From Planctomycetota bacterium (GTDB lineage: Bacteria > Planctomycetota > Planctomycetia > Pirellulales > UBA1268): a stretch of 35,512 nt of DNA. Shown here piece after piece: positions 3,325 to 31,233 of this stretch. The position numbers and the translations under genes are program-made. Below the pieces are notes generated by a model. That model saw nothing but the letters and a program-made list of their open reading frames with translations. It was not told where the DNA came from and made no database searches. The first letter of the stretch is position 1; every line of letters begins with the position of its first letter. The stretch lies in the NCBI GenBank assembly GCA_016872925.1, contig VGYR01000007.1, positions 1-35,512 on the forward strand, given 5' to 3'.

Positions 3325-5013
<1,689 letters not shown>

Positions 5014-5085
5014 GCGTTGGGGGTTTCGGAAAAAACGGGTTGGGGGAGAGGGATGAAGGCAGGCCACGAAAAAATCGAGCCCCGG

Positions 5086-8572: not shown

Positions 8573-9565
8573 ATGTCATCGGCTGCCCCTCCTCCCTGCG
8601 GATCGCGCCAGGCCCCCGGCTCCCCCCTCGCCTGCCGGCTTCCCCGGATCGTCGACGCGGCCGCGATCCTCGTGTTCTGCGGGTCGGCGGCGGGGCTGCT
8701 CTCGGCCTGGCATTGGCTGTTCGACCTGACCACCCACTTCCGCCAGTACTGGTTTTATGCCGCCGCGGGCGGACTTCTCGCGGCTCTCGTGTTCCGTCGC
8801 CGGCCGGCGGCCGTGATCCTGCTGGCGGCGGTCGTTTTCAATGGGCTCGACCTTGCCGGCTCCTGGCTCCCGCCGCCGCCGAACCGCGACCCGGCGGGGA
8901 GCGAGTCGGTGTTTCTGATCTCGATGAACGTCCGGCGCATCAACCGCGACACCGCCGCCGCGATCTCCTACCTCCGGGCGCGGCAGCCCGACGTGGCCGC
9001 GGTGATCGAGGTGGACGGCCGCTGGGCCCGCAGCCTGGAAGGCCTGGGCGACCTGTTTCCACACCGCGTGATCGTGCCCCGCCCCGACAACTTCGGGATC
9101 GCCGTGCTCTCCCGGTGCCCGCTTGCCGACACCCGCGTCGTCGAGTTTTCAGCGAGCGGGTATCCGAGCATCGTGGCGACGGTGCGTCACGAGAGCGGCG
9201 ACTTCCGGCTGATCGCCACGCACCCCTATCCGCCGTTCGACGCGTCCGCATGGGCGACCCTCAACGAGCACCTCGCCGGAGTTGCCGCCGAGGCCGCCCG
9301 CGGACCGCTCCCGAGCGTGGTGGTCGGCGATCTCAACGCGACCCCCTGGTCGCACCCGTTCCGCCGCCTGCTCGAGTCCGGCGGGCTCGTCGACACGGCC
9401 CTCGGCCGCGGCGTGCAGGCGACCTATCACGCCGGACAGCCGGCACCGCGAATCCCGATCGACCACGTGCTCGTGCCGCCGGCGACTCAGGTGCTGCGCC
9501 GCGAGGTGGGGCCCGCGAACGGCTCGGACCACTTCACGGTCGAAGCGGAGGTCGTGCTGCCGTGA
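8573..9565 (+). CDS. Membrane-anchored endonuclease/exonuclease/phosphatase family protein
   Basis: The 330-residue protein has three N-terminal hydrophobic segments (about 27-50, 60-73 and 79-97) followed by an endonuclease/exonuclease/phosphatase domain. The active-site series is complete: ISMNV (N119), VIEVDGRW (E146), ATHPYPP, VVGDLNATPWS and GSDHFTV. Family members hydrolyse phosphodiesters in DNA, RNA or phospholipids using a metal ion. The membrane anchor places the domain at the cell surface or in the periplasm, which favours an envelope or extracellular DNA or lipid substrate. The start is uncertain: an in-frame ATG at 8525 would overlap uppP by 25 bases and add 16 Pro-rich residues. 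I prefer 8573. It is probably in an operon with uppP. Confidence 0.82.
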   Translation: MSSAAPPPCGSRQAPGSPLACRLPRIVDAAAILVFCGSAAGLLSAWHWLFDLTTHFRQYWFYAAAGGLLAALVFRRRPAAVILLAAVVFNGLDLAGSWLPPPPNRDPAGSESVFLISMNVRRINRDTAAAISYLRARQPDVAAVIEVDGRWARSLEGLGDLFPHRVIVPRPDNFGIAVLSRCPLADTRVVEFSASGYPSIVATVRHESGDFRLIATHPYPPFDASAWATLNEHLAGVAAEAARGPLPSVVVGDLNATPWSHPFRRLLESGGLVDTALGRGVQATYHAGQPAPRIPIDHVLVPPATQVLRREVGPANGSDHFTVEAEVVLP

Positions 9566-22953: not shown

Positions 22954-23026
22954 GCGGGCGTAGCTCAGTTGGTAGAGCGCTAGCTTCCCAAGCTGGATGT
23001 CGAGGGTTCGAGTCCCTTCGCCCGCT
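22954..23026 (+). tRNA. tRNA-Gly (anticodon CCC)
   Basis: All stems can be drawn: acceptor GCGGGCG with CGCCCGC (22954-22960 and 23019-23025), D stem GCTC with GAGC, anticodon stem CTAGC with GCTGG (one T-G pair), and T stem GAGGG with CCCTT around TTCGAGT. The anticodon loop TTCCCAA (22985-22991) gives anticodon CCC at 22987-22989, which reads GGG. The discriminator base is T, and CCA is not encoded. The tRNA is the insertion site of the mobile element to its right. Confidence 0.97.
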
Positions 23027-24713
23027 TTTCTTCTTGTGCCGGAATCACGTGGAAAACACGGGCGATTGTCGGCTTCTTCGCGCGGGCGGATTTTTTGCCC
23101 GCTGGACTGCGAGGCCCTGCGGGACCCTCCAAAGCACCCCCGTTCCCTGAAGTTGGTACAACAATTGGTACAACGGGCTTGGCGACCTCGGCAGCGGCGG
23201 TCGAACCCACAGCCTCCAGCATCGGGGGCGTGGCGGGCAGCAAGTTGACCGCCTTCGTGACGTCGAGGTGCTTCTCGTCGGCGTAGGTTTTCAGCACGAG
23301 GTCGAGCGACGAGACCCGCATCGCCGCCATGGCCGTCCGCGGGTCGACGCCGGCGACTGCCAGCTGGGTGTTGAACGTGGTGCGCATCGCGTGCACGTCG
23401 AGCCGGCAGCCCCGCTCATCGACCTTGGGAATCCCGGCTGCCGCAAGGTCCCGGTCAAGAATCCTGATCAGGCCCGCCGGGATCTGAACCAGCCGGTCAT
23501 CGGCGGCCAACACCGTGCCCTGCGCCGCGAGCCGTCGCCGCCGGTCTGCCAACCAGTCCCGCACGTGGCTGGCGACGTCGGGCCGCAGGGGGATCGTGGA
23601 TCGCTTGCCGTTCTTCGCGTGGACACCGCGGAGGGTCACCACGGGCGCGTCGTCGCTCAGGTCCACGTCGGCCACGGTGAGCGACGCGAGTTCGCCCTTC
23701 CGCATCCCGGTGGTCAGGAGCAGCTCGTACGTGAGGGCCCGCTCCCAGCCCTGCAGTTCCAGATGCTCCGCCCTTTCCGGCTGAACGACAGATCGCCCAC
23801 GCGCAGACGCCTCGGCGATTGTGTCGACCGTGAGGGGGGACTTCTGCCACGTGGCCCGCGATTTGGAGGCCCGTGAGCGGCCCGGCGAACGGACCGTGGA
23901 CCGACCGTGCTCCGCCAGCGGCCGGAGACGGGCAATCAGGAGCAGGCGGCCCAGTTCGCCGGCCGTCATGGCCCGGCGGCGCCGCCGGACATCGTCGCTC
24001 TCGTCGAGCTTCTTTAGCCGATCAAACGGGTTCTCGATCAGTCGCCCCGAATCGACCAGCCAGTTGCCGAAAGCCGTCAAGGCGATGAGCTTGGCATTGA
24101 TCGTCCGCGGGCCCGGGGCTCTACGAATGCGGACGGTGCCGTCCTTTCTCGTGATGGTCTGGTCGGGACGACGGAGACTTTCGCTGGCCCAGTCGAGAAC
24201 CTTCTGGCGGTCGAGGTCGCGGAGCGTTTTGAATCCGCACGCCTTGGCGATGTCGCCCAGCCCACGACGCACGTTGTCGACGTGCGTTTTCGACACATTG
24301 GGGTGGGCACCCTTCCCGCGACTGTTCGCCAGAACCTTGAGATACTCGCCGATGTGTTCCTCGATCGGCGTCGAGAGATGTTCGGCGGCCTCGGCCTCGC
24401 GGGGCGAGAGCATTCCCGCCCGTACCTTCTCGGACCGCGCTTCGAGATCGGCGAGCACCTGCTTGGCGGCGTCGCGAGTCCGGCAGCCGGTCGCGACCTT
24501 GCGAACCACACCGGCACCATCCCGAAACTTGGCCGTGAAGGTCGCCGCCTCCACGATGATGCCCGGGCGGCTCGCCTTCGGCCCGGCGGTGCGAGCCCTC
24601 TTGAGCTTGCCCGACGCATCGCGCCACTCTGCCCACTGCTCCCCGCCGCGCGTCACGATCGTGGCGCCGGCCGGCAGCGGCCGCGTGACCTTGGCTTTGA
24701 AAACTGACCCCAT
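22980..24713 (-). CDS. Tyrosine recombinase (integrase)
   Basis: The 577-residue enzyme inserts and removes the element at the adjacent tRNA. An N-terminal arm-binding region is followed by a core-binding SAM-like domain (about 116-232) and a catalytic domain (about 318-485). The catalytic residues are R338 (TTGMRKGEL), K370 (KNGKRSTIPL), H441 and R444 (HAMRTTFN), and Y477 (KTYAD). The second His of the typical MRHS motif is Val467 here (MRVSS), so one catalytic position is replaced. A Lys/Ala-rich linker leads to a C-terminal 15 residues (KRAKGLEPSTSSLGS), whose codons run antisense through the 3-prime half of the tRNA; the TAG stop is in the anticodon stem. GGAG precedes the ATG at 24713. 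Confidence 0.93.
   Translation of the reverse strand: MGSVFKAKVTRPLPAGATIVTRGGEQWAEWRDASGKLKRARTAGPKASRPGIIVEAATFTAKFRDGAGVVRKVATGCRTRDAAKQVLADLEARSEKVRAGMLSPREAEAAEHLSTPIEEHIGEYLKVLANSRGKGAHPNVSKTHVDNVRRGLGDIAKACGFKTLRDLDRQKVLDWASESLRRPDQTITRKDGTVRIRRAPGPRTINAKLIALTAFGNWLVDSGRLIENPFDRLKKLDESDDVRRRRRAMTAGELGRLLLIARLRPLAEHGRSTVRSPGRSRASKSRATWQKSPLTVDTIAEASARGRSVVQPERAEHLELQGWERALTYELLLTTGMRKGELASLTVADVDLSDDAPVVTLRGVHAKNGKRSTIPLRPDVASHVRDWLADRRRRLAAQGTVLAADDRLVQIPAGLIRILDRDLAAAGIPKVDERGCRLDVHAMRTTFNTQLAVAGVDPRTAMAAMRVSSLDLVLKTYADEKHLDVTKAVNLLPATPPMLEAVGSTAAAEVAKPVVPIVVPTSGNGGALEGPAGPRSPAGKKSARAKKPTIARVFHVIPAQEEKRAKGLEPSTSSLGS
22985..23026. other. Predicted left attachment core (attL) in tRNA-Gly
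   Basis: The element-side gene begins inside the tRNA, so the crossover region must be the tRNA 3-prime half, from the anticodon loop to the discriminator base, or part of it. Integrases commonly use this part of tRNA genes. No second copy is found to the right in this window, so attR must lie beyond 35512. The exact core limits are inferred. Confidence 0.6.
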
Positions 24714-24758: not shown

Positions 24759-25133
24759 TCATTTCCGGCCGCCGATACGCACGTGCCGAACGACGGGGCA
24801 CCCGGCGGCGATCCAATCGTCCACCACCTGCCGGTTCCAACGCCGCAGACTGCCAAGCTGAATCGGCGGCGGGCATCGGCCTGCGTCGGCCATCCGGCGA
24901 ATGTGCTTCAGGGAACACCCCAGCTTGGCCGCGAACTCCTTGACATCGATCAGCGGCTTCTCGGCCGCCGGCTTTGCACCAGCACTGCCGCGGACTCGGA
25001 CCCACGCGGCTCCCACAAGCTGGTTTACTTCGCCAGCAGGCCGCACGGGTGCCGGCGGGTTGATGTCGAGCGGCACGGGCGTGGCTGGCCGCGTAGCGAT
25101 AGCGGCCGTCTGTTCAGATTCGTAGCTCTGCAT
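24759..25133 (-). CDS. AlpA/excisionase-type HTH protein
   Basis: The 124-residue protein ends in a MerR-like HTH of the AlpA/helix_turn_helix_17 type (about 62-110): LIDVKEFAAKLGCSLKHIRRMADAGRCPPPIQLGSLRRWNRQVVDDWIAAG. This wing and the Arg-rich recognition region are typical of phage and satellite excisionases. The first 60 residues are a disordered Pro-rich extension. AlpA-type proteins switch on integrase genes or guide excision. The gene lies 45 bases upstream of the integrase gene and is likely co-transcribed. The ATG at 25133 is preceded by GGAG. A TTG two codons upstream is possible but less likely. Confidence 0.85.
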   Translation of the reverse strand: MQSYESEQTAAIATRPATPVPLDINPPAPVRPAGEVNQLVGAAWVRVRGSAGAKPAAEKPLIDVKEFAAKLGCSLKHIRRMADAGRCPPPIQLGSLRRWNRQVVDDWIAAGCPVVRHVRIGGRK

Positions 25134-25231
25134 TGACAAGTCTCCGTAATGGAATGTGATCGAGGGAAAAGTGATGGTGATCGACGGTCAACCTTGGGGA
25201 TGCCAGCGGATCGTCACGGTCGGTATGCGCG

Positions 25232-26761
25232 TCATGTCGATAACGCGGGGGTGGCCTTTCCTTCACGACGCCCCCGACGGCGTGGCTTCGGGATCTCGAA
25301 CAGCCGGAACACGCCCACCTGCTCGTCCAACCACTCGCCCTGCTCCTGCTGGACCAGCCATCGGCACGCCTCCCGCAGGTCCTCGCGGCCGTGGTCGGCG
25401 AAGGGTTCACGGGCGGCCAGCGCATCGATTTTGATCGCGGCGGTTCCCCCGTAGCGCACATACCTGACGAGCCGCTCGATAAGGCGGATCCCACTCTGTG
25501 CCCCATTGGCCATTGCCGCGAGCGCCTGCAAGGCCGGGTCGTCACCGGCATCGCTCAACAGCCCGACGGGTGCGCCTTCAGGAGCGGCATGGCCGCCCCG
25601 CAGTTCGGGACGCCAGATGAGCCACCGACCGAAGAAGAACAGCGTCGCCGCGGCCGCCGCTTGGGCGTCGTCGCCGTCGATATCGCCGAACGGGCCCTGC
25701 TCGCCGAACTCGCCTGCGGCCCACCGGAAGCACCGATGCAGCAGGGCGAGCTTGACGGCGTGCTGTCTGAGTTTCGCAACGATGCCGTACTGGGACTCCG
25801 GCACGCCGATGAGGACCACCAGCTGGTTGAGTTGAGCTTCCAGCCGCCGGCACGCTTCGAGGGCAGCGGGTGAGAATCGGGACTCCAACTGATTGCCTAG
25901 GGAGTCCGCGGCCAACTCCTCGATATGGAACAAGCGGTCCACGGCCTCGGCCCACGCGGCATTCAAGGCCGGGTCGTCGGCGTCCCGCGGCCACGTCGTC
26001 AGACGCGCAACGCCATCGCCGACCAGAAGAAACCGGTCGAGCAGCCCGTCGTCGCCCCGCTGGCTGTAGGTACACTGAAACAAACTCGGCTGGATGCCGC
26101 CAAGCAGGCACACGTACGGCGCGACGAGAGTGACGGACTGGGACTGCGACGACGCTCGTTCGCGCCGACGGCTGCGGCCGTCGTAAAGCTCGCAGAACAT
26201 CTGCCGGTCCGTGCCGCCGGTGTTGCGAATGAACAGGGTGCTCTGCTCGTCGGGGTTGAAGAGCAGCTGGCGGTTGTTGTGCTCAAGGAGTCGAAGCACC
26301 GCCGGACCGGTGCAGTCGTTTGCGATCACGCACGGCTGGGGTGGCTTGGCACCACGGCGGCGCCCCGTCCCCTCGCCATCGCCGTCGCCGTCCGAATCCT
26401 CATCGCAGTCGTCGTCGGACGAGTCCTCTTCGGCCATGAACGCGGCCCGCTGCTTCAACTCCTCCTCGTGGCGGGCAAGCGGGGCGAGCACCTTGTCCCC
26501 GAGGATGCTCTTGCCTGACCCCTTGAACCCGATGATCGAAAGGAACACGTTCGCGCGGACGCACCAGCCGGGTTGGACGCACGCCGAGACGTTGCCGCCG
26601 CTCGCGGTTCCGCCAGCCGCCAGCATGAAGGCGATCGCGAATTCGTCCGGAGTATCAGTCGCCTCGGAAAGCGACTGCCGGTACTGTTCGAGCTGGGCGG
26701 GAAAGAATTCAGGGAACGTTGTGGGCAGGCCGAGGTGGCCGAGGAACTCTTGGCGAGACAT
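25232..26761 (-). CDS. DUF3987-type P-loop ATPase (predicted helicase/primase partner)
   Basis: The 509-residue protein fits the DUF3987 family, replication-associated ATPases of phages and plasmids. The opening PEFFPAQLEQYRQSLSEATDTPDEFAIAFMLAAGGTASGG precedes Walker A GFKGSGKS (78-85). Walker B is RQLLFNPDE (164-172). An acidic insert (111-131, Asp/Glu/Ser/Gly, then Arg-rich) lies between them. Further features are LLGGIQPSLF (219-228) and, at the end, helices and the basic RRRGRREGK. The ATG at 26761 begins this pattern. The open frame continues upstream through low-complexity sequence that overlaps the ParB-like gene in another phase. It is likely co-transcribed with the upstream ParB-like gene, 77 bases away. 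It probably acts on DNA; exact activity is not known. Confidence 0.8.
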   Translation of the reverse strand: MSRQEFLGHLGLPTTFPEFFPAQLEQYRQSLSEATDTPDEFAIAFMLAAGGTASGGNVSACVQPGWCVRANVFLSIIGFKGSGKSILGDKVLAPLARHEEELKQRAAFMAEEDSSDDDCDEDSDGDGDGEGTGRRRGAKPPQPCVIANDCTGPAVLRLLEHNNRQLLFNPDEQSTLFIRNTGGTDRQMFCELYDGRSRRRERASSQSQSVTLVAPYVCLLGGIQPSLFQCTYSQRGDDGLLDRFLLVGDGVARLTTWPRDADDPALNAAWAEAVDRLFHIEELAADSLGNQLESRFSPAALEACRRLEAQLNQLVVLIGVPESQYGIVAKLRQHAVKLALLHRCFRWAAGEFGEQGPFGDIDGDDAQAAAAATLFFFGRWLIWRPELRGGHAAPEGAPVGLLSDAGDDPALQALAAMANGAQSGIRLIERLVRYVRYGGTAAIKIDALAAREPFADHGREDLREACRWLVQQEQGEWLDEQVGVFRLFEIPKPRRRGRREGKATPALST

Positions 26762-26838
26762 GTGTATCCGCGTCTGAGCGCGGCTCCATGGGTGGGATGG
26801 TCGGGGAAACGATGACTGGGCTGATGAGGGGCGCGGCA

Positions 26839-27798
26839 TCACTGGTCGAACTGCCGCTGCTCCTCGACGATGATCTGCTTGAGCAGCCGACGCAGTTCGC
26901 GATGGTCCGCGACGGCGAACAGCCGCTTGAGTCGCTCCCACCGCTCGCGGATTTCTGGCTCCGTCGGCGCGGGCTCGTCGACCTCGACCGGTGACGCCTC
27001 GAAAAACAACTCGGCTTCGGGCCGTACCGATTCCTTCTTGGCGGTCTTCCTGCTGCCCGGGGATCGCTTCGCAGGCACGACGTCCCGGAGGCGCTTCTGC
27101 CCGGTGGCGACCGCTACGACCTCCACGCTGCTGATCTCGCCGGCCTCGACGCCGTCGGCGAGGGCCACGGCTTGTCGGGCCTTGTGCAGGCCGATTTTGC
27201 ACATGGCGGCAAACTGCCCCACGGTGCTCGCCGCGTCCTTCTCCCGGCTGGTGCGATCGGCGGCAGAAGACTCTCCCGGTGGCGAAGAAATCTCCGCCGC
27301 CGCTCCTCGTTGCCCGAAACGTGTGGCCGCCTGACACGCCTTTCGCCTTTCGCGAATGATGGGCAAGAAGGAGAGTCCCAAAGCTGCACGCTGGTCGCCG
27401 GTCAGGTGGCGGCGAGGCACGTTGACCATCCAAATATGCAGCTCGACTGACTCGTTCACCGACGGCTGCCACTCCTCCGTAGGCAGTGCGATGTCAAGGC
27501 CCTGCCGACGCAACTCTTCGACAGCACGTGCACGATTTCGTCCATCAATCAGAAGCCCCTCGTGGAGTTCGACGGGGGTTACGACGCCGGTAAGCCGAAT
27601 CGCTTCTACGAAGTCATCGAACTCCTTGCCGACGATTAGCGGCAGGCGGCTCGCCGCCGGATGGACGGTGAAGCCCGCGATCACCTCGGGGATGGTCGGC
27701 TGCGCGGCGGCAACCGCGTCCCCGCACGTGGCTGCCGGAAGCAGTGCGACCTCGGGCAGCATCAGCGTGTGTGAGCCATCTACGGATTCAAAACCCAT
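26839..27798 (-). CDS. ParB-like protein
   Basis: The 319-residue protein has the ParB N-terminal-like domain at about 36-130. The core is EFDDFVEAIRLTGVVTPVELHEGLLIDGRNRARAVEEL, with LIDGRNR (83-89) as the family signature. A HTH-like segment lies at about 190-215 (TVGQFAAMCKIGLHKARQAVAL). A Lys/Arg-rich, then acidic linker and a C-terminal helix (RELRRLLKQIIVEEQRQF) follow. ParB proteins bind centromere-like sites; mobile-element versions can be nucleases or regulators. No ParA gene is in the window. The start is the ATG at 27798, preceded by AAGGAG; an inverted repeat 43 bases upstream may be its operator. Confidence 0.82.
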   Translation of the reverse strand: MGFESVDGSHTLMLPEVALLPAATCGDAVAAAQPTIPEVIAGFTVHPAASRLPLIVGKEFDDFVEAIRLTGVVTPVELHEGLLIDGRNRARAVEELRRQGLDIALPTEEWQPSVNESVELHIWMVNVPRRHLTGDQRAALGLSFLPIIRERRKACQAATRFGQRGAAAEISSPPGESSAADRTSREKDAASTVGQFAAMCKIGLHKARQAVALADGVEAGEISSVEVVAVATGQKRLRDVVPAKRSPGSRKTAKKESVRPEAELFFEASPVEVDEPAPTEPEIRERWERLKRLFAVADHRELRRLLKQIIVEEQRQFDQ

Positions 27799-27840
27799 TG
27801 CAAATCTCCTTGCCGTCTTCCGGCGTTGGGGTGCTCGACC

Positions 27841-27857
27841 GTGATCGCTGTGATCAC
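27841..27857. promoter_or_regulatory. Inverted repeat operator candidate upstream of the ParB-like gene
   Basis: GTGATC, five bases, GATCAC: a perfect inverted repeat 43 bases before the ParB-like ATG, with a second GTGATC in direct orientation overlapping it. Such symmetry suits a dimeric repressor. The binding protein is unknown. Confidence 0.5.
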
Positions 27858-28224
27858 GTTCGCGGCATTTTTCCCGGGGCACCGTGCCACCACTACGCAC
27901 GCGGGTGTTCCAACACACATGCGACTCGGAAGGCGGCTGTTCCGAGCCCGTTCCCCCTACGCGTGTACGCGCGCGCGAGCTATTTGTCAGAGCGGGGCGG
28001 CACGATCGCCTCGCTGCGGCGCACCCAAGGGATTGGAACGCGCTGGTTCCTAGTGTGGACGCAGTTGGAAAGCCGGCGTGCGTAGGTGGCGTCCGCCGCT
28101 CGCGTCACGATCGAAAGAGTTCATGACGATGCGCAGGGCTCCCTGCGGGCATGAACGCCTCACGGGTCGCGACGAACGATCTAGGTCGTCGCCGTCGATC
28201 CACCAACGCGAAAGCGAGACGACA
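27858..28224. other. Divergent intergenic control region
   Basis: This gap between the leftward ParB-like operon and the rightward primase-helicase gene must hold both promoters, but I see no confident -35/-10 pair. It contains a 20-base run of strictly alternating purine and pyrimidine (27958-27977), prone to Z-DNA, and an imperfect palindrome GGAACGCGCTGGTTCC (28035-28050). Much of it is open in the primase-helicase frame from 28078, but that part reads as basic low-complexity sequence and is probably not translated. Confidence 0.5.
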
Positions 28225-30957
28225 ATGTTGCGAGACCGATCCGAGATCGTGCCGGTAGATGCCAGTCAGATTCCGCAGGCTTTGAAGGATGCCCCGCGAT
28301 GGGCAATCTGGAAGGCCGAGCCCAAGCCACAACGGGATGGCACCGTCAAGCTCGACAAGGTGCCCTACCGTTCCTTTCGGCCATTCGTGCACGCCAAGAG
28401 CAACGACCCAGCGTCGTGGTCGACGTTCGAGGCCGCGTATGCGGCGTACAACGATCGGGCAAACACCGGTGCCGACGGACTGCTCTTTGCGTTGGGGGAT
28501 GGCCACGCTGCTGTGGACCTCGATGATGCGGTCGTTCCAGCGACCGGGGCGCCGACACCCGAGGCCCGTGAAGTCATCGACCTCATCGACAGCTACGCCG
28601 AGCGGTCGGTTTCGGGCATGGGCGTTCGTATTTTTGCGTTCGGCCCTGAAGTGAAAGGCATCCACTTCGGTAGCCGCGAGATCTATTCCCGATACCGATT
28701 CATGACTGTTACCGGGCAACATATCTCCGGGACGTCTGAGCAAGTCGAGCACAGGGAGTTGCCCCTCGACGCCCTGAGGCAGCGACTGGGACGAGAGCGT
28801 ATGGAGGCGGCCGCGCAGCGGCGACGGGCGCGTGGCGGCGATGAAATCTTCTCCACCGGGGACGCCGGACCGGTCGTGGATGCCGCGACGCTCGGCGTGA
28901 GCGACGCGGAGATCATCGACACCGGCTACGACATGGACGGGTTTGCGGAACTCTGGCGTGGCAGCACGGCGGCGTATGATGGGGATGCAAGCCGTGCGGA
29001 TCTAGCCCTTGCCGGCCGACTCGCCTTCCTCTGCGGTCCGGACCAGCATGAACGCGTGCGACGGTTGATGGAGCAGAGCGGTCTAGTACGAGAAAAGTGG
29101 TTCACGCACCGGACGTACTTGATGGAGTTGACGATCGCGAAAGCTTACGAGGAACGAGAGGACTACTACGCATGGGATCACCTGAGCGGCTTCGGCAACC
29201 GCTATGATCGGATCGCAAGGCGTGTGGCCGAGGCCGGCTCTAGTTATGACGACCGGCGTGCGGGCGGCACGGCGACGTCCATGCAAATACTGCGGGCCTC
29301 CGCCGCCGAGCATCCGGCTTCGGATGCTCGGGGGGACGAGCGTCCGACGATCGTGCTCGGCCCAGAGACCGACGCCCTGCTGCACGAGCTGGAGCACCAC
29401 ATGGCGCCGCACCTGTACCAGCAAAGCGGCCGACTGGTCAGGGTGGAGCGGCGTGACACCGCGGCTGCCAGTGAGGTGCTGAGACGGCCTAGGGAGGCGC
29501 ACCAAATCGTATCGGTGCCTCACGAGATGACCCAGCGTCTTCTGAGCCGGCATGTGTGTTTCGTGACCACTGAAACTACCGGGCAGGGCAAGCAGCGGAA
29601 GAGCGTGACCAAGCAGACGGCAGCACCAGCGAACCTTGCAAAGCTTTTTACGAACTGTGGCAGTTGGGCAAACATCCCGCACCTCGTTGGAATCACCAGC
29701 ACGCCGTTCATGCGGCGTGACGGCGAAATTGTTGGCACGCCGGGATTCGATCCCGTAAGCGGCTACCTATTCATCGATGACGGTACCGCGTGGGAGCCTG
29801 TGCCCGCTGATCCCACCCACGAGCAGGTGCTAGCCGCCGTTGATGCGCTGCTTGAAGTGGTCTGCGACTTCCCGTTTGAGAAGCCCGAGCACCGATCAGC
29901 ATGGCTCTCGGCGATGCTGACAGCGGTTGGCAGGCCCGCGATCTACGGCCCGGTGCCGATGCTCTGGGTGGACGGCAACCGAAAGGGCACCGGCAAGTCC
30001 AAACTCCCGCGGCTCATCAGCGGAATCGCCTGCGGGCACGATCCCACGGAGATCGGGTTTACGAGCGAGGAAAAAGAACTGGAAAACCGGCTCCTATCCT
30101 TGCTGCTTGGCGGGGACCGTGTGGCTGCGTTCGACAATGCCGTCGGCTCACTGCGGAACCCAGTGCTGGATAGGTTCCTGACGTCCACGATCTTCAGCGC
30201 TCGCGGGTTCTTCAAGCAGGAGATCGTGAAACGGCTGAACAATACCGTGCTGGCGGTGACCGGCAACAACCTGACGCTGCGCGGAGACCTGTCGCGACGA
30301 GTGCTGCGAGTTCGGCTCGTCACGCCTCTTGAACGCCCGGACCGCCGCGACGATTTTCGGCACCCAGACTTGTTTGGCTTCGTCCGGCGCAACAGACCTC
30401 GTCTTGTAGCAGCTGCCCTCACCATCCTCCGCGCACACGCTGCGAGTGGCTTTCAGGAGCCGTTAGTCCGGGTCACCAAGCCTGACGGAACCGTGGCGTG
30501 TGAACCGGCGAGGCCCGTCGGCAGTTTCCGAGAGTGGGACGTCGTCGTACGGCACGCCATGCTACGCATCGGCCTACCGGACCCCGCCCGGACGCAGGAC
30601 GAAGCCCACGAGCAGGACGAGGGCGAGATCAAGCTGCTGGCGTTCCTCAGCGCGTGGCATGCGTGGCTCGGGCCGAAAGAGGTGACCGCGACGCAGTTGA
30701 TCCGGGAAGCCGGCGAGGAACCGAGTAGCGCAGGAAAATCGCCGGACCGAGCCCTCGACGAAAAGGCGATGCACGCCGACTACCTGCTCGCCCTGCTCGA
30801 ACTCACCGAGACCGAGCCCGGGAGAACTCCTTCGGCACAAACCCTTGGATATCGGCTTCGCGAGAACGTCGAAAAACCTATCGGGGGCTATCGGCTCGTC
30901 AAACAAGCGAGGGGACGAGATGGCATCCGATACAAAGTTATTCGCGAGGGAAACTAG
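28225..30957 (+). CDS. Primase-polymerase fused to AAA+/SF3-like helicase
   Basis: The 910-residue protein combines two replication activities. The N-terminal part (about 15-190) matches a phage NrS-1-type archaeo-eukaryotic primase/polymerase: PRWAIWKAEPKP, ADGLLFALGDGHAAVDLDD (83-101, with the metal-binding Asp residues) and REIYSRYRFMTVTGQHI. Residues 228-318 match the NrS-1 HBD-like domain (ELWRGSTAAYDG, SRADLALAGRLAFLCGPD and SGLVREKW). The C-terminal part has Walker A GNRKGTGKS (584-592), Walker B-like DRVAAFDN (631-638), sensor-1 VLAVTGNN (675-682) and an arginine-rich LSRRVLRVRL (689-698). A protein like this can both prime and unwind DNA at an origin, as P4 alpha does. I prefer the ATG at 28225; the frame upstream has no conserved content. 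Iterons lie just after the gene. Confidence 0.88.
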   Translation: MLRDRSEIVPVDASQIPQALKDAPRWAIWKAEPKPQRDGTVKLDKVPYRSFRPFVHAKSNDPASWSTFEAAYAAYNDRANTGADGLLFALGDGHAAVDLDDAVVPATGAPTPEAREVIDLIDSYAERSVSGMGVRIFAFGPEVKGIHFGSREIYSRYRFMTVTGQHISGTSEQVEHRELPLDALRQRLGRERMEAAAQRRRARGGDEIFSTGDAGPVVDAATLGVSDAEIIDTGYDMDGFAELWRGSTAAYDGDASRADLALAGRLAFLCGPDQHERVRRLMEQSGLVREKWFTHRTYLMELTIAKAYEEREDYYAWDHLSGFGNRYDRIARRVAEAGSSYDDRRAGGTATSMQILRASAAEHPASDARGDERPTIVLGPETDALLHELEHHMAPHLYQQSGRLVRVERRDTAAASEVLRRPREAHQIVSVPHEMTQRLLSRHVCFVTTETTGQGKQRKSVTKQTAAPANLAKLFTNCGSWANIPHLVGITSTPFMRRDGEIVGTPGFDPVSGYLFIDDGTAWEPVPADPTHEQVLAAVDALLEVVCDFPFEKPEHRSAWLSAMLTAVGRPAIYGPVPMLWVDGNRKGTGKSKLPRLISGIACGHDPTEIGFTSEEKELENRLLSLLLGGDRVAAFDNAVGSLRNPVLDRFLTSTIFSARGFFKQEIVKRLNNTVLAVTGNNLTLRGDLSRRVLRVRLVTPLERPDRRDDFRHPDLFGFVRRNRPRLVAAALTILRAHAASGFQEPLVRVTKPDGTVACEPARPVGSFREWDVVVRHAMLRIGLPDPARTQDEAHEQDEGEIKLLAFLSAWHAWLGPKEVTATQLIREAGEEPSSAGKSPDRALDEKAMHADYLLALLELTETEPGRTPSAQTLGYRLRENVEKPIGGYRLVKQARGRDGIRYKVIREGN

Positions 30958-31031: not shown

Positions 31032-31233
31032 GTGACGATGTGACGATGTGACGATGATTTCAGTTCTTTGGATTTCCGGATACACGTAGGGAGATACCAA
31101 CTTCTCTTCATTCACCTTAGAAAGAGAATCATCGTCACATCGTCACAGGGATGCCGGAAGCACCTTGTATTCCGGGCTTTCTGCGTGTGACGATGGTCCA
31201 ACAGCATCGTCACGGATCGTCACGCATCGTCAC
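31032..31233. repeat. Iteron cluster: nine copies of GTGACGAT in both orientations
   Basis: GTGACGAT occurs three times in tandem (31032-31055). Inverted copies ATCGTCAC lie at 31131 and 31139, one direct copy at 31187, and three inverted copies at 31206, 31216 and 31226, the last three spaced 10 bases apart. The first two groups form a long inverted repeat around a more A+T-rich centre (31061-31125). The 31187-31213 pair forms a palindrome with a nine-base spacer. The last copy overlaps the stop codon of the next gene. This resembles replication-origin iterons, and also could act as a terminator between convergent genes. Confidence 0.85.

Follow-up and report, generated by a model that had tools for sequence, protein, structure and literature searches.

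A 202-bp array of short repeats at positions 31032-31233 of the window, the whole stretch of 35,512 nucleotides analyzed here, is very probably the site where replication of an integrated mobile element starts, a cis-acting origin recognized by the primase-helicase whose gene lies upstream of it. As such, it would be an origin of the SaPI/PICI-P4-pRN kind, in a new variant. A sequence-only reading of this DNA had already interpreted the array as an origin, and the likeness to phage P4 and the arrays found in relatives now support that interpretation, in the absence of data on binding, origin activity or replication.

The array is built from the word GTGACGAT, which occurs in nine exact copies in four groups (starts at + 31032, 31040, 31048; - 31131, 31139; + 31187; - 31206, 31216, 31226). 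All nine copies lie where the sequence-only reading had placed them, and its further descriptions hold as well: the last three copies are spaced by 10 bases, two groups form a long inverted repeat with perfect 21-nt arms (31039-31059 / 31127-31147, 67 nt apart) around an A+T-rich core (Table 1), and the array directly follows the primase-helicase gene, starting 74 bp past its stop codon at 30957 in a convergent intergenic gap. The layout is a dyad with outer copies on the right side only; the left outer half, present in the full dyads of relatives, is missing in the window. The word matches 13 times in the whole window, whereas shuffled sequences average 1.2 matches and never exceed 4. No second cluster of it exists in the 35.5 kb window, and the exact 17-mer GTGACGATGTGACGATG, a tandem of the word, is unique in the 4.5 Mb assembly. 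An RNA element was rejected as an explanation, with only sub-threshold matches to eukaryotic miRNAs that are produced by the inverted repeat, as was a promoter or transcription terminator, with no promoter or intrinsic-terminator match in the array region.

Table 1. Features of the array, the primase-helicase gene and the surrounding element (window coordinates)
Feature	Position	Strand	Remarks
tRNA-Gly(CCC), probable integration site	22954..23026	+	integrase ORF overlaps its 3' end
Tyrosine integrase	22980..24713	-	Pfam PF00589; PHROG integrase
Small HTH_17 protein, excisionase-like	24759..25139	-	Pfam PF12728
ParB-like ORF	26839-27918	-	named from sequence only, without Pfam match
Primase-polymerase/helicase gene, 910 aa, proposed cognate initiator	28225..30957	+	
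NrS-1-type helix-bundle domain of PrimPol part	28990..29169	+	Pfam PF22763, E 1.1e-11
D5-like helicase domain	29335..30627	+	Walker A GTGKS, AAA+ core; alignments, AlphaFold2 model, fold search
C-terminal winged-helix-like domain, candidate iteron-binding part	30652..30957	+	model pLDDT 87.7; weak structural matches only
Inner left arm	31032..31055	+	three tandem GTGACGAT iterons, 8-bp period
A+T-rich dyad center, probable melting site	31056..31130	.	59% A+T in the spacer between inner groups vs 39% in flank
Inner right arm	31131..31146	-	two tandem GTGACGAT iterons, inverted
Flipped iteron	31187..31194	+	48 bp from outer member of inner right arm; relatives 42-51 bp, P4 ori1 43 bp
Outer right group	31206..31233	-	three iterons, 10-bp spacing, 67/77/87 bp from inner arm

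The length of 910 residues given earlier for the primase-helicase, with its ATG at 28225, is supported: in-frame stops precede this ATG in a related contig of the source genome. Within the 959-codon ORF, residues 60-370 contain an NrS-1-type PrimPol with its helix-bundle domain (HBD); the order of an AEP domain followed by the NrS-1 helix-bundle domain meets the criterion for this type, and the N terminus matches the NrS-1 primase (6a9w, 1.7e-14) and the SaPI5 primase-helicase (7ola, 2.4e-12) in sequence. The helicase module, residues 420-959, has neither a Pfam nor a PDB sequence match. Its AlphaFold2 model (pLDDT 80) is predicted to adopt a D5-like helicase fold, and a fold search with this model finds vaccinia D5 (Z 14.3), PriRep1 with dsDNA (7pds; Z 13.2 over 361 residues, rmsd 10.5, whole model), the SaPI5 structures 7om0/7ola (Z 12.6-12.9) and the C-terminal region of NrS-1 (Z 10.8). 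The last 130 residues are modeled as a winged-helix-like domain of helices followed by a beta hairpin. Taken alone, this domain gives weak structural matches (best Z 5.6), and no initiator domain, including the DNA-binding domains of P4 alpha and PriRep1, is among the matches listed; this is a missing match and not counter-evidence.

The surrounding genes run in the order tRNA-Gly/integrase, HTH_17, DUF3987, ParB-like, primase-helicase, array, PD-(D/E)XK nuclease and contig end. The contig stops (35512) before the element is complete, and of the PICI-type genes only int, the HTH_17 protein and the replication gene are seen on it. In a search of the assembly for attR with the 3' end of the tRNA-Gly, only the tRNA itself matched, and the other end of the element is absent from the assembly. 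The DUF3987 ATPase, a putative second helicase, overlaps the ParB-like ORF (25232-27918, minus strand), both being divergent to the primase-helicase gene. Further loci of the source genome (L402, G000:C143; L341, G000:C277; L342, G000:C341; L055, G000:C398) comprise primase-helicase genes whose 3' arrays use different words, CGTGGGCA, GTTGAGGTG and GGGTGAAGC, as well as a contig on which a close relative of the 910-residue gene begins.

Relatives of the gene were sought in several hundred genomes of the phylum and in viral contigs; a search of the genome contigs with the window protein returned no relatives, and a whole-genome search was used instead. The resulting set comprises 49 genes with the helicase module, 48 of them relatives of the window gene. 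Common to the relatives is the C-terminal module, at about 26-33% identity, and the N-terminal primase is swapped among them while the 3' array persists. An NrS-1 HBD N terminus is found in the window gene and in L036, L045, L318, L053 and L054, a Prim-Pol N terminus (PF09250) in L332, L333, L319, L069, L060 and L323, a DUF3854 N terminus in L014, L040, L325 and L066, and a Toprim_3 N terminus in L004, with a weak RepB_primase match in L044. The words identified by eye in the 3' flanks differ from locus to locus: GGTGAGTC in L036, GTGACTC in L039, where an integrase-like ORF begins directly after the array, GCAGAGGAT (also written TGCAGAGG) in L014 and TTGCGGGTA in L051. The identical word is rejected as a conserved feature, the 8-mer and 17-mer of the window being mostly absent in relatives. 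In the search for the 8-mer in related elements that the sequence-only reading had proposed as a check, the 8-mer itself is mostly missing; the repeats, whose absence from related elements would have counted against an origin, occupy the matching position there and keep their spacing. Because most relatives use a different 8-mer, searching for the 8-mer alone would have missed these arrays.

The layout was scored without reference to a particular word. The quartet score, with a maximum of 24, takes two direct 8-mers 8-10 bp apart, a gap of 45-110 bp and two inverted copies; a strong quartet reaches at least 22/24, and the 3' zone extends from -60 to +320 bp, counted from the 3' end of the helicase domain. 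This score replaced an earlier count of 8-mers with one mismatch, which was too noisy in G+C-rich loci. Across the 49 genes (578 kb), 27/29 strong quartets fall into the 3' zone, which makes up 3.2% of the bases (binomial p 2e-38). A quartet of at least 22 stands at the 3' end of 26/49 genes, rising to 33/49 at a threshold of at least 20; the array extends into the 3' coding end in L083, L069 and L325. The remaining 23/49 genes have no quartet of at least 22 at the gene end; either not every gene has the feature, or its diverged forms escape the score. Some loci of this first set are near duplicates, and its p-value is optimistic, since the score was designed after some of the same loci had been seen by eye. 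Fairer tests are P4 and a second set of 32 Pfam D5_N genes fetched afterwards, in which the 3' zone, with 7.8% of the sequence, contains 11/12 quartets of at least 22 (p 7e-12).

Beyond the quartet, the outer copies follow a common spacing, with distances counted away from the dyad center, starting at the outer member of the inner pair. At 42-54 bp, a flipped copy occurs 16 times, compared to 0.24 in shuffled flanks (maximum 3), and copies in the same orientation at 60-96 bp occur 38 times, compared to 0.94 in shuffles (maximum 5), concentrating near 65-67, 74-78 and 84-88 bp. The window values are 48 for the flip and 67/77/87 for the same orientation. Full two-sided dyads are found in L323, L051, L317, L324 and L052, and the D5_N set shows chiefly the inner quartet. 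No shared spacing rule of this kind was found in the open-access literature searched.

Phage P4 (L336, NC_001609) obeys the same rule with independently annotated repeats. Its deposited annotation places type 1 repeats at 9310-9413 and 4314-4585, corresponding to ori1 and crr. Written in word orientation, ori1 reads + 10 + 11 + 22 - 43 + 10 +, which by the same measure gives a flip at 43 and same-orientation copies at 65/76/86 bp, and this order of spacings and orientations mirrors the right half of the window array (8, 48 flip, 19 flip, 10, 10). The crr reads - 9 - 43 + 18 + 14 -, present two times over, and looks like the opposite half of the dyad; its location directly 3' of alpha is the position that the array occupies relative to the window gene. 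The P4 word GGTGAACA shares GTGA with the window word. The analogy with P4 drawn in the sequence-only reading is therefore closer than had been claimed. The two systems differ in that the cis sites of P4 are split over about 5 kb, whereas the window has one contiguous cluster, and in that the alpha primase is of the Toprim type (PMC4234260), in contrast to the archaeo-eukaryotic PrimPol of the window (NrS-1 type with HBD). From the arrangement of the repeats, it may be inferred that ori1 and crr represent two halves of a contiguous dyad. As to whether such likeness is convergent or related, which had been left undecided, the layout is probably related, given the D5-like fold shared by the helicases, and the words are lineage specific.

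Iterons in this location are also known from satellite elements of other hosts. The SaPI Rep acts through its C-terminal domain on iterons directly 3' of its own gene (PMC7581432), and PICI origins consist of two iteron sets around an A+T-rich region 3' of rep and are functional in plasmids (PMC6092414). Like SaPI5 PriRep1 and the pri-rep-ori of EcCICFT073, the window has its proposed origin directly behind the initiator gene, with two iteron sets around an A+T-rich region (arms +++ / --), and an AEP primase fused to a D5-like AAA+ helicase, in the window a predicted fold whose model aligns to 7pds/7om0/7ola at Z 12.6-13.2. Unlike these elements, the window belongs to another host lineage, its helicase module lacks a PDB sequence match, and its neighboring genes (DUF3987, ParB-like, PD-(D/E)XK nuclease) do not correspond to the PICI gene set. 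In SCCmec, the Cch2 helicase uses its C-terminal domain to bind short repeats that lie downstream of the cch2 gene itself (PMC7581432); that origin has three AAGTG iterons in a direct-repeat region and a separate primase-polymerase, unlike the window.

The archaeal plasmid pRN1 depends on a segment of about 100 bp on the 3' side of orf904, which has been described as a stem-loop with a 21-nt stem and a 58-nt loop, 54 bp after the gene (PMC4234260). Inspection of the first 200 bp after position 5030 (L343, NC_001771) shows the arms as TGTCCATAG|TGTCCAACT plus the inverse, a 9-bp tandem, with a quartet score of 20 that is equaled in 0/60 shuffles; pRN2 is weaker (19, 2/60). The pRN1 stem, being an inverted 9-bp tandem, may thus represent iterons rather than a structural origin. 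Both orf904 and the window gene combine a PrimPol, an HBD, a helicase (SF3 in pRN1) and a winged helix (winged-helix-like in the window), and in both, the replication gene is closely followed by an A+T-rich loop between 21-nt arms. Only the inner pair is present in pRN1, whose authors describe a structure and not iterons. A further cluster, of TACACTTT iterons, lies directly after the primase gene of phage NrS-1 (L335, 8161-8472) and contains the TTTGGTTA primase site. In the part of the NrS-1 structure paper available, only two 8-nt recognition copies are given, as a possible origin, and the iteron cluster is not mentioned (PMC7102993). NrS-1 and the window share the N-terminal PrimPol/HBD family, and the C-terminal helicase is only a distant structural match (Z 10.8).

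A multistep initiation mechanism can be proposed by inference from these arrangements. Here, GTGACGAT would serve as the recognition word of the primase-helicase, and two oligomers, probably hexamers, would dock through the C-terminal winged-helix-like domain, facing each other on the inverted arms. The facing oligomers would then melt the A+T-rich center, and DNA chains would be initiated on the separated strands by the NrS-1-type PrimPol domain, leading to bidirectional synthesis. The flipped copy (48 bp) and the outer trio (67/77/87 bp), whose three members are about one helical turn apart, may act as accessory sites.

Other functions of the array have to be weighed against this one. It is unlikely, though not to be dismissed, that the array is bound by the initiator without being the start point, serving as a crr-like or an incompatibility/copy-control site while replication begins at another place in the element. 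P4 requires both ori1 and crr, the latter adjoining the alpha gene, and the window array is a one-sided dyad. Against this stand the lack of a second word cluster in the window, the confinement of the tandem 17-mer to this one place in the assembly, and the origins of SaPI/PICI elements and pRN1, which occupy exactly the same position (PMC6092414, PMC7581432, PMC4234260). A stem-loop origin, in which the 21-bp inverted repeat is extruded as a hairpin and the 8-mers are not protein sites, has a slight chance of being correct; the perfect 21-nt arms and 67-nt loop much resemble the 21-nt stem and 58-nt loop of pRN1 (PMC4234260). However, four further copies (31187-31233) lie outside the hairpin at spacings that recur in relatives and in P4, relatives with imperfect arms, L036 among them, keep the 9-bp tandem, and the pRN1 stem is itself such a tandem.

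The HBD of the PrimPol might instead set the word, making the repeats single-strand priming sites without a role of the helicase in recognition. This has only a very slight chance of being true, even though the iteron contains GTGA, one of the two best primase motifs of the NrS-1 PrimPol (GTGA/GTGG; PMC8718748), and the known TTTGGTTA primase site of phage NrS-1 is part of the iteron cluster that directly follows its primase gene. Arrays persist with a Toprim-like or DUF3854 N terminus, GTGA words occur there too (L325, L066), and the HBD enzymes L318, L053 and L054 have words without GTGA. The HBD as the setter of the GTGA word is consequently not supported; the word does not track the N-terminal type, and the match of GTGA to the NrS-1 PrimPol motif may be incidental. 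A partition or integration site, either a parS for the ParB-like gene or arm sites of the integrase, is scarcely credible. Both genes are present in the same element, but the array tracks the 3' end of the helicase gene across relatives, and the integrase of the window sits at the tRNA-Gly, some 6 kb from the array, while the integrase-like ORF of L039 directly follows the array.

The reading of the array as an origin can be extended to a general proposal, which is held tentatively and is slightly more apt to fail than to stand: the origins of D5-type self-loading primase-helicases, in bacteria as well as archaea, would all be built alike, following one fixed spacing rule but using words specific to each lineage. 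This architecture would consist of inverted 8-11 bp tandems around an A+T center and, farther out, one flipped site at 42-51 bp and a trio at about 65/76/86 bp, with P4 ori1 and crr as its two halves and the pRN1 stem-loop as its core. If the rule is true, the origin and the recognition word of an element can be read from its sequence alone, which offers a route to both in uncharacterized satellites, plasmids and phages; it also suggests a reason why P4 requires both sites. The same organization stands behind several primase-helicase families, very probably of Planctomycetota elements, in which the spacing is conserved and the word can vary. Such a natural series of one helicase module with many words and swapped primases is suited to studies of how initiators read DNA and load facing rings.

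Arrays of the window word also occur outside this group of genes. Three-copy hits of GTGACGAT in a blind scan were mostly coding repeats, with a spacing that is a multiple of 3 inside an ORF, and were rejected; only noncoding arrays of mixed orientation were retained. In the records with other GTGACGAT arrays, the helicase module was not found by a search with a diverse alignment. The viral contig L161 has a nearly full GTGACGAT dyad at 8753-9064 amid tail-like genes and no primase-helicase of the diverse-alignment, PF08800 or PF19263 kinds found in its record. Phage BT4734-like primase-helicases (phrog_28855) are found in L118, L162, L094 and L082, with the GTGACGAT arrays 5' of the gene and not 3'. 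In L155, about twenty GTGACGAT-like copies at 2239-2415 form an unbroken 8-bp tandem that overlaps small ORFs.
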